From positions 1,612,001-1,676,000 of the forward strand of contig NC_009663.1 of NCBI RefSeq assembly GCF_000010345.1: 64,000 nt of DNA. The letters run 5' to 3'. Position numbers and translations under genes: made by a program. This DNA is from Sulfurovum sp. NBC37-1. Lineage in GTDB: Bacteria > Campylobacterota > Campylobacteria > Campylobacterales > Sulfurovaceae. This document shows positions 5,370 through 40,769 of this stretch, piece after piece; position 1 is the stretch's first letter; every line of letters starts with the position of its first letter. A model generated the notes under the pieces. The model searched no databases, was not told the DNA's origin, and worked only from the letters and a program-made list of their open reading frames with translations.

Positions 5370-5414
5370 TGTTTTCTTCCTATCTAACTTAAATTATTGC
5401 TTATTTTTAAAAGT

Positions 5415-5483: not shown

Positions 5484-6260
5484 ATGAATTTTATAGAAGT
5501 GAACGATATCGACCTTCCGGAAGTACAGATATACCAGAGATTACGTGAGAATGCCTTCTCCAAAGACGGCTCTTTCATTGCGGACAGTCCCAAAGTGGTC
5601 AATCTGCTGATAGAATCAGGAGTGGAGATCAAAAGTATTTTCGCAGCACAGGAATATTACGATACTTACAGAGACTTTCTGGCGAACTACACGATCCCTG
5701 TTGCTTACGTCGCCCCCAAGACCGTGCTCGAACAGATCGTCGGGCATAGGCTCCACCATAACGTCATGATGCACGGGGTTCGCCCAAAAGAGAGTACCCT
5801 GGATGCGTTGGGCAATCACATCATTATGCTCGACGAGATCAGTAATACGGACAACATCGGCTCCATAGCCCGTTCTGCCGCAGCACTGGATGTAGGCTCA
5901 CTCCTTCTTCCAAGACAGGGGCCGCACCCCTACGCAAGACGCGCGCTGCGTGTCTCGATGGGCCATATAGGCAAACTGAAGTTCCACCGCTACGACAATA
6001 TCAAAGAGACGATACAGAAACTGAAAAAGATGGGCTACCGCATCTTCGCCGCAGAGGTCACCAAAGATTCCACCCCACTCTCACAGGTACGGGTCCCGGG
6101 AAAATGGGCACTTCTAATGGGGCATGAACAGCTGGGCATATCAGACGAAATACTGGCACTCTGCGATGAAGTGGTGACCATAGAGATGGAAGAGGGGATA
6201 AAGAGTTTCAATGTCGCTGTAGCAGCATCGATTATGATGTACCGGTTCAAGCACACGTAG
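5484..6260 (+). CDS. TrmH-family (SpoU) RNA 2'-O-ribose methyltransferase
   Basis: 258 residues from ATG 5484. The SPOUT motifs are clear: motif 1 with NTDNIGSIARSAAA, motif 2 LLMGHEQLGIS, and motif 3 SFNVAVAASI near the C-terminus, which form the knotted S-adenosylmethionine site. An N-terminal substrate-binding domain precedes it. The target (a tRNA or rRNA ribose) cannot be decided from sequence. The open frame runs upstream to 5397, but that stretch covers the HspR operator and is low-complexity, so 5484 is the better start. The stop TAG is part of the GTAG head of a REP element. Confidence 0.88.
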   Translation: MNFIEVNDIDLPEVQIYQRLRENAFSKDGSFIADSPKVVNLLIESGVEIKSIFAAQEYYDTYRDFLANYTIPVAYVAPKTVLEQIVGHRLHHNVMMHGVRPKESTLDALGNHIIMLDEISNTDNIGSIARSAAALDVGSLLLPRQGPHPYARRALRVSMGHIGKLKFHRYDNIKETIQKLKKMGYRIFAAEVTKDSTPLSQVRVPGKWALLMGHEQLGISDEILALCDEVVTIEMEEGIKSFNVAVAASIMMYRFKHT

Positions 6261-6282
6261 GGTGCTGTCCCCTAACGGCACC
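6257..6282 (+). repeat. REP hairpin, GTAG-headed
   Basis: GTAGGGTGCTGTCC...GGCACC folds into a hairpin. Its head overlaps the stop codon of the methyltransferase gene. An inverted partner lies at 6575-6599, beyond a palindromic element. Confidence 0.8.
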
Positions 6283-6298
6283 ATTTTTTATGCATTAT

Positions 6299-6564
6299 GG
6301 GCACATCTAAAAACCCTAAATACTCATAATGGGTTTTGCAAATGTGAGATTTTGCAAGAGGCTTTCAAGTCCTAGCCAAAGCTAAGACGAAGTAAAAATC
6401 TTGTGAAATATTGCGTTTGCAAAGCCCACCCTCTGGGCATCACCAGCTTTCACCTATGCGTTGTTACTCTTTTTTGACTTAGCTATGGCTAGGCCTGCAA
6501 AAGAGTGCCTACCCTAGATAAAAGCTAGAGATGTTATGAGCATCTAGGGTTATTAGATGTGCCC
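6299..6564. mobile_element. Long palindromic element with terminal inverted repeats (MITE-like), copy 1
   Basis: 266 bases bounded by inverted ends: GGGCACATCTAAAAACCCTA on the left and the reverse complement of GGGCACATCTAATAACCCTA on the right, one mismatch in 20. The inside holds a second inverted repeat (GGGTTTTGCAAA against TTTGCAAAGCCC) flanking a TCCTAGCC...GCTAAG centre. The inner part, about 6328-6457, is clearly related to 40619-40752. No reading frame of note inside, so it is non-autonomous if mobile. It sits between two inverted REP hairpins. Confidence 0.75.
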
Positions 6565-6574
6565 TTATTTGATT

Positions 6575-6599
6575 GGTGCTGTGGAACAGCGCACCCTAC
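6575..6599 (-). repeat. REP hairpin, GTAG-headed, inverted partner of 6257-6282
   Basis: GGTGCTGTGGAACAGC...CCCTAC: a hairpin whose GTAG head reads on the minus strand. With 6257-6282 it makes an inverted pair that encloses the palindromic element. Confidence 0.75.
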
Positions 6600-6609
6600 G
6601 CACTAAATA

Positions 6610-6637
6610 TTAAAAAATAGGTAAACCTATTTTTTAA
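6610..6637 (-). terminator. Terminator-like hairpin at the end of purH
   Basis: A 13-base perfect stem (TTAAAAAATAGGT and its complement) with a two-base loop. Its right arm overlaps the purH stop codon at 6634-6636, and it is A/T-rich on both flanks, so it could stop transcription in either direction. Confidence 0.6.
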
Positions 6638-8166
6638 TGCAAAAAGTGTCTCACCGTCGTGAAGTAAAGCGCGATACCGTGCTCGTCCGCCGCTTCGATG
6701 ACTTCGTCGTCACGAATGGAACCGCCCGGTTCGATGATGGCTTTGACACCAGCTTCCGCTGCGGCGTCTATGCTGTCCCTGAACGGGAAGAAGGCTTCGG
6801 AAGCCATCGCTGCGCCTGAGACATCCAGCCCCATCTCTTTCGCCTTTTTGAGGGCACACTGTGCAGCATCGACACGGCTGGTCATTCCCATACCCACGGC
6901 TACCATCGCAGAGTCTTTGACATAGACCACACAGTTGGACTTGGTAAGACCTGCTACTTTCCATGCGATCTCTAAGTCTTTCATCTCCTGCTCTGAAGCA
7001 GTGAGCTTTGACTTTTTCTGAGCATTGTGCACTTCATTGTCACAGATACAGTCAGAGTTCTGGTACACAAAACCGCCGTCGATATGTTTGAAGTCATGGG
7101 AATCATGGCTCATAAGCAGCCTTGCATTGCCCTGGGAGAAAAGTTTGATGCGCTTTTTCTTTTCAAACACAGCCACTGCATCTTCAGTGAAGTCAGCCGC
7201 GATGATCACTTCAAGGAAGATCTCATTCATCTTTTCAGCCATCTCTCTTGTTACGATACCATTGACAGCTACCACACCGCCGAAGGCTGAGACAGGGTCG
7301 CACTTAAGCGCTTCTACATAGGATTCCGTCAATGTGGACTTGATAGCAAATCCGCAGGGGTTGCCATGCTTGACGATACAGACCGCCGGTTCGTCACCGA
7401 AACTTGCCGCGATCTTGAGTGCGCCGTTCACATCTGTAAGATTGTTGAAGCTCGCTTCACCCTTGATCTGTCTGAAATTCTCAGAAAAAAAACTGCCAAA
7501 CTCATAAAGCGCACCGTCCTGATGCGGATTCTCTCCGTAACGTGTCTGGAAGACTTTTTTACCGGTAATGAACTGGTACGCACCGAATCCGTTGTTGAAA
7601 CGATCGTTCATATAGTTGGCGATCATGGAATCGTACGCCGCCGTATGCTCGAAAGCCTTGATCATGAGCCCTCTTCTGAATTCCAGACTGTCACGTCCAT
7701 TCTCCAGCGCACCAAGTACTTCTTCATAATCGTTCACATCTGTGACGATAAGCACATCGTTGAAGTTCTTTGCCGCTGAACGTACCATTGTCGGGCCACC
7801 GATATCGATATTCTCGATGATCTCACCGAAATCATCCGTTCTCTCGATCGTTTCTTTGAAGGGATAAAGATTTACACAGACAAGGTCGATGCCTTCCACG
7901 CCAAGCTCTTTAGCCTGCTCTACATGCGCTTTATCACCGCGCTTGTGAAGGATACCGCCATGTACATAAGGGTTCAGTGTCTTCACACGCCCTTCGAAAC
8001 ACTCAGGGAATTTCGTTACTTCATCGATCTCGATGACTTTGATGCCTGCCGTTGACAGTGCTTTATAGGTTCCGCCCGTAGAGATGATCTCCCAACCCAG
8101 TTTTTCCAGACCTCTGGCAAACTCAACGATACCGTTCTTGTCGCTTACGCTTAATAATGCTCTCAT
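6634..8166 (-). CDS. purH: Bifunctional AICAR transformylase / IMP cyclohydrolase
   Basis: 510 residues from ATG 8166. The N-terminal third is the cyclohydrolase (MGS-like fold, begins [12 protein letters not shown]); the rest is the formyltransferase, with RYGENPHQ and KHGNPCG as landmark motifs. It performs the last two steps of purine synthesis, AICAR to FAICAR to IMP. The frame extends 18 bases upstream through TTG 8184, but AGAGAGA sits four bases before ATG 8166. It lies downstream of purL on the same strand, with a structured 253-base gap between them. Confidence 0.95.
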
Positions 8167-36912: not shown

Positions 36913-36995
36913 GGTGTCGTGAGGACACAGCACCCTACGAGATACCACTAAAACCAGAACTATGCGACTGTAGGGTGCTGTCCCCCGACAGCACC
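36913..36995. repeat. Two REP hairpins with heads facing each other
   Basis: REPs at 36913-36938 (head on the right) and 36970-36995 (head on the left), the opposite arrangement to the REPINs elsewhere. They follow the receptor stop codon by four bases and could serve as its transcript end. Confidence 0.75.
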
Positions 36996-38557: not shown

Positions 38558-38607
38558 GGGTACCTATAGTAACCATAGATGAGTATCCAGGGTTTTTAGA
38601 GGTTCCC
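38558..38607. repeat. Short hairpin with GGGTACCT ends
   Basis: 50 bases: GGGTACCTATAGTAACC on the left against GGGAACCTCTAAAAACCC read from the right. Likely a small relative of the palindromic elements at 6299 and 40597. It sits between two cell-wall genes. Confidence 0.55.
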
Positions 38608-40596: not shown

Positions 40597-40769
40597 GGGA
40601 ACCTCTAATAATAGGTAATGCCCACAATGGGTTTTGCAAATGTGAGATTGTGCAAGAGATTTTCAAGTCCTAGCCCTAGCTAAGACGAAGTAAATATCTT
40701 GCGCAAGATTGCGTTTGCAAAGCCAACCCTACGGGCATCACTAGCTTTCGCCTATTTTTAGAGGTACCC
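40597..40769. mobile_element. Long palindromic element (MITE-like), copy 2
   Basis: 173 bases with inverted ends GGGAACCTCTAATAATAGG and, reading from the right, GGGTACCTCTAAAAATAGG. Almost the whole element folds on itself: GGGTTTTGCAAATGTGAG... on the left matches GGCTTTGCAAACGCAATC... from the right. The core is clearly related to copy 1 at 6299-6564. It lies between ppk2 and a DUF1566 gene. Confidence 0.78.

Follow-up and report, generated by a model that had tools for sequence, protein, structure and literature searches.

In the 64,000-nt stretch of Sulfurovum sp. NBC37-1 DNA analysed here (hereafter the window), two mobile elements lie one inside the other, and it is very probable that a REPIN came first and that a MITE of IS5 type later inserted into its spacer. 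We propose that a RAYT, a tyrosine transposase, is the most likely agent to have put the REPIN, which would have comprised two inverted GTAG-type REPs with 22 nt of AT-rich spacer between them, at the 3' end of a trmH-like gene, and that an IS5-family DDE transposase would later have moved the 266-bp MITE in trans into the TTAT of this spacer, duplicating 4 bp. The interrupted REPIN would no longer be movable as a unit. That RAYT and IS5-family DDE transposases did the moving is what we infer from sequence comparison. The nested insertion is well supported but represents an ordinary case of stacked mobile elements; it neatly illustrates the stacking of two unrelated mobile systems (tyrosine RAYT/REPIN and DDE IS5/MITE) at one intergenic site, and brings with it a genus-wide MITE family, an identified parent type and orthologous sites showing the order of insertion. 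Among the literature matches listed, none had a title dealing with this element or with a MITE that sits in a REPIN.

The whole structure is located between two convergent genes. Specifically, a left GTAG-type REP (6257–6282, plus strand), recognized by its hairpin, its genome-wide pattern and its presence at the same place in the genome G050, would form the first REPIN arm, and an inverted right REP (6575–6599, minus strand), with a hairpin less regular than that of the left one, would form the second. Between them lies the 266-nt non-autonomous element (6299–6564, plus strand), whose terminal inverted repeats are of IS5 type and whose interior folds into a branched structure, and which is bordered at its edges by the sequence TTAT (6295–6298 and 6565–6568). 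The boundaries that an earlier note on this DNA had assigned to both REPs and to the element proved exact to the base. The upstream gene (5484–6260) encodes a TrmH/RlmB-like RNA methyltransferase, for which the best NCBIfam match is TIGR00186 (118 bits, below the cut-off of 160), while the downstream gene on the minus strand, extending up to 8184, is purH (TIGR00355, 541 bits against a cut-off of 528). The trmH-like gene takes its stop codon, TAG, from the GTAG of the left REP (6257–6260). Also between the convergent genes, positions 6609–6638 hold a perfect 14-nt inverted repeat with A/T runs around GGT/ACC, which looks like a two-way terminator.

The element shows the features of a transposed unit. 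As the earlier note had claimed, it has inverted ends of its own, which pair over 34 nt at 88%, and the target duplication sought around 6299 and 6564 is present as a perfect 4-bp TTAT directly at both ends. There is no ORF of at least 60 aa within 6299–6564, as expected of a MITE, which has no coding capacity, and the sequence folds far better than shuffled controls (z of -8.5 as DNA and -10.4 as RNA, with 0 of 200 shuffles as good in either case). Within its own genome 40 matches were found, 19 of which exceed 75 nt, and 34 of the 78 genomes of the genus contain exact matches to the end pattern GGGNACCTCTAATAA. From 65 loci taken we obtained 55 full-length copies, which together with that of the window make up the 56 copies of alignment A1; their length is 263–268 nt, and exactly 266 nt in 43 of the 56 despite a mean pairwise identity of 0.84. 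When the window copy is set aside, an exact 4-bp direct repeat borders 31 of the 54 copies with both flanks (mean 3.9 and maximum 11 in 2000 shuffles), and one with at most a single mismatch borders 41 (mean 17.5 and maximum 28 in 2000 shuffles); among these 54 copies an exact 5-bp repeat occurs once, and repeats of 6 or 8 bp never. Additionally, there is evidence that the family has moved, since G050 carries a copy upstream of the trmH-like gene, between TTAA and TTGA, at a place where the window has the same flanks and a single TTAA (5389–5392), that is, a clean empty site. Besides the long copies, short forms of 50–55 bp with little beyond the element's two ends occur at six sites in this genome (G000:C1:324326–324380, 500025–500074, 697167–697216, 1181287–1181339, 1400748–1400797 and 1650558–1650607, the last being window 38558–38607), of which that at 324326 has TAAA on both sides. 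A truncated copy of the family lies at window 40597–40755 (G000:C1:1652597–1652755).

Because of the ends shared with ISs, the 4-bp duplications and a relative among IS5-family transposases, we class the element, as judged from these sequence features, as a MITE of IS5 type, whose partner IS was found in this genome as remnants only, a point of difference from MITEs as presented in the available part of PMC10969869. One remnant of 924 bp (G000:C1:1293224–1294147; L014:1075–1998) has the element's ends, a perfect ATAT duplication and a 71-aa ORF. Searched by itself, this 71-aa piece hits nothing in Pfam or NCBIfam. Its matches, spread over 3 of 78 genomes in all, are a second remnant in this genome and a fragment in G057, each next to such an end, and a longer protein in G029. 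The G029 protein (L223:577–1563, 328 aa) falls in the IS5 family (NF033581, 253.7 bits, cut-off 140) and also matches DDE_Tnp_1 and DUF772; no matching pair of element-type ends was found around it. Among 298 genomes of the order, relatives were found in 16, and six of the loci examined have both element-type ends: L227 (1279 bp, ATAT/ATAT, 346-aa ORF between the ends), L228 (1350 bp, no 4-bp duplication, 347-aa ORF), L229 (1270 bp, TTAA/TTAA, 343-aa ORF), L230 (1237 bp, TTAT/TTAT), L232 (1014 bp, TAAA/TAAA) and L239 (533 bp, TATA/TATA). A 4-bp duplication therefore accompanies five of these six two-ended ISs or IS remnants, all from other genera, as well as the 924-bp remnant. In L227, L228 and L229, whose IS5-family assignment goes by their G029 relative, both ends are within two mismatches of GGGCACCTCTAAAAACC and are thus shared with the element. 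Within this genome, which has 13 DDE_Tnp_1 matches, no matching end pair was found at the eight of them that were examined for it, nor at L240, and no locus was found with an intact matching transposase; a pattern search of the genus for an IS-length pair of perfect ends gave none among the matches listed. The 924-bp remnant also holds a piece of an IS200-like Y1 transposase, a second nested case in this genome.

The two REPs belong to one family, which is abundant in this genome. GTAG repeats have been reported from Sulfurovum sp. NBC37-1, and REPINs have been described as a class, in the available parts of PMC3733652 and PMC3116915, respectively. The pattern GTAGGGTGCNNT has 52 matches (29 on the plus and 23 on the minus strand) in the 2.56-Mb genome, and a backward control pattern has one. 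The hairpin of the left REP is clear (z of -2.9, 2 of 200 shuffles as good), while that of the right REP is weaker (z of -1.55, 17 of 200), and the right REP has no sequence within four mismatches in the other loci compared, except in copies of the same locus. Facing REP pairs no more than 400 bp apart were found nine times, that of the window included, against 0.10 expected by chance at this density. The eight uninterrupted facing pairs span 61, 70, 74, 74, 75, 76, 95 and 99 bp; the window pair spans 343 bp as it stands, and 73 bp with a 22-nt AT-rich spacer once the 266-nt element and one 4-bp duplication are taken out. The remark that the REPs face each other in the manner of a REPIN is thus borne out, since the two are of the same GTAG-type family and, without the insert, lie within the 61–99 bp norm. 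Moreover, a RAYT gene of this genome (L050:856–1371; REP_Tyr_transpos NF047646, 150.8 bits against a cut-off of 80; Y1_Tnp, 31.5 bits) is flanked on both sides by REPs of this family. Because of the 73-bp geometry, the number of pairs far above chance and the RAYT between such REPs, the window pair, interrupted today, appears to have once been one REPIN, that is, two inverted REPs of the same family around a short spacer. As far as the available parts of PMC3116915 and PMC3733652 describe REPINs and GTAG REPs with their RAYTs, the likeness extends to inverted GTAG pairs, a short spacer, a distance of about 70 bp and a RAYT flanked by the same REPs, whereas the window pair differs in its interruption by a 266-bp element and its irregular right arm. 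The other distant facing pair (832 bp) was considered as an interrupted REPIN and rejected, as its REPs enclose a complete 162-aa ORF. A back-to-back REP pair lies at window 36927–36981 (G000:C1:1648927–1648981).

Relatives of this genome bear on the order of insertion. In G050, the nearest sister genome found, with flanks 90–91% identical to the window, the left REP occupies the corresponding position and overlaps the stop codon, while the element and the right REP are absent. Since G050 has the left REP without the element, the left REP is, on this comparison, the older of the two; the geometry would place the whole REPIN before the element as well. The proposal that one element had inserted into the loop of the other and that relative ages could be read from this is therefore upheld by the TTAT duplication and by the G050 locus. 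The expected empty REPIN in a sister was seen in part, as G050 has the left arm free of the element but lacks the right one, and an exact empty REPIN was not seen in any genome examined. The same locus speaks for a different history, in which the two REPs are independent, the left REP being followed by the element and then by a second REP beyond it, with no REPIN ever interrupted; the irregular right REP and the many REPs of this genome for which the exact pattern gives no facing partner point the same way. However, facing pairs this close would arise by chance far less often than they occur, and the 73 bp left after removal of the insert sits among the spans of the other eight pairs, so we regard independent REPs as decidedly unlikely and prefer the interrupted REPIN. 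Among the 85 loci examined, 30 have the trmH-like gene and purH side by side (at least five represent the same genome twice), and only in the window is the element or one of its ends found between them. Counting against this simple picture, an end-like sequence of the element family closely follows the trmH-like gene in G024, where the contig lacks purH. G015 carries an uninterrupted REP pair of the same family between the same two genes, of about 91 bp and with an unrelated spacer, which may therefore be an independent insertion.

We see no sign in these sequences that the element targets REPs. A REP of the window pair's family lies within 120 nt of 1 of the 56 element copies, namely that of the window, as counted by a detector that misses irregular REPs, even the right REP of the window; at L025, L158 and L160 one flank of the copy contains a REP-like hairpin. 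This count bears on the idea that REP, element and REP are one composite unit moving together, which the symmetric placing of the three parts might suggest. Against it stand this count and the 4-bp duplication, which lies inside the REPs, directly at the element; we find a composite unit hardly conceivable next to a MITE inserted into a REPIN. As with the ISs that target REPs (PMC1525189, available part), a transposable element lies in REP-related DNA, but those ISs repeatedly hit a fixed place in the REP, whereas the window element hit the AT-rich spacer and is the one copy of 56 beside such a REP. The neighbouring genes (left, right) are oriented (-,+) at 23 copies, (-,-) at 13, (+,+) at 11 and (+,-) at 6, with one side unassigned at the remaining three; thus, where both neighbours are assigned (53 copies), the genes are divergent or tandem around 47 copies and convergent around six, that of the window among them. 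Many copies end 15–50 nt upstream of a start codon. An oriented 5' leader at promoters, at first suggested by the flanks, was rejected on the gene-orientation counts of the 56 copies.

The interior of the element is conserved as a fold, with a proposed shape that combines an outer stem with two long inner hairpins and one small hairpin. The consensus of the 56 aligned copies has 87 pairs, of which 36 show double changes (17.5 when shuffled, at most 12 when slid), and the 63 inner pairs alone include 21 (8.5 when shuffled, at most 9 when slid), although the consensus structure was derived from the same sequences, which favours such scores. On a FastTree tree, parsimony assigns 43 double-change events (0.68 per pair) and 45 pair-breaking changes to these inner pairs; in 200 random re-pairings, retained where at least half of the rows can pair, double changes amount to 0.05 per pair. 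Strongly folding transcripts are typical of MITEs according to the available part of PMC10969869, and the family is like the IS5-derived MITEs within its general account in having IS-shared terminal inverted repeats with a short duplication and in being non-coding, intergenic and strongly folded by prediction; it differs in a length that is near-fixed over 68–100% identity and in an interior conserved by compensatory changes.

The excess of double changes and the constant length would fit an element that is retained because it works as a folded RNA, for instance in neighbouring transcripts as their leader or 3' element; this question concerns the element's role and is compatible with nested insertion. 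Yet neighbouring genes are not oriented preferentially along one strand, and the two strands are similar in folding strength (consensus -96.6 for plus and -107.6 for minus, with single sequences favouring plus in 42 of 56). Rfam gave no family at threshold, the one match (21.1 against 45 bits) lying over the right REP and the terminator-like repeat, and, besides the origin of the structure in the same sequences, palindrome correction by template switching could also yield double changes. With neither orientation bias nor strand preference to back a specific RNA role, we consider such a function rather unlikely. Conserved G-U pairs were dropped as a mark of functional plus-strand RNA, because G-U had been permitted in choosing the structure and the minus strand folds just as well. 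Since the length is near-fixed and the inner helices are kept by repeated compensatory changes throughout the genus, even where the matching IS5 transposase has decayed, the element might instead be a mobile folded nucleic acid selected for shape, and not a passive deletion derivative, a reading that we offer tentatively and as less probable than its opposite. Whether selection acts on some bacterial MITEs as folded RNA or DNA can be put to the test through the conserved inner fold.

Across relatives, the trmH–purH intergenic region is a recurrent landing or expansion site. In G014, G012 and G045 it holds inverted GTAG pairs of other sequence (loci among L094, L095, L103 and L133), and in G020, G009, G055 and G035 runs of a 7-bp tandem repeat (loci among L093, L097, L098 and L100). 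As in the window, the trmH-like gene at the G050 locus (L113) is terminated by the TAG within a REP's GTAG, while in other relatives its end lies at a different place.
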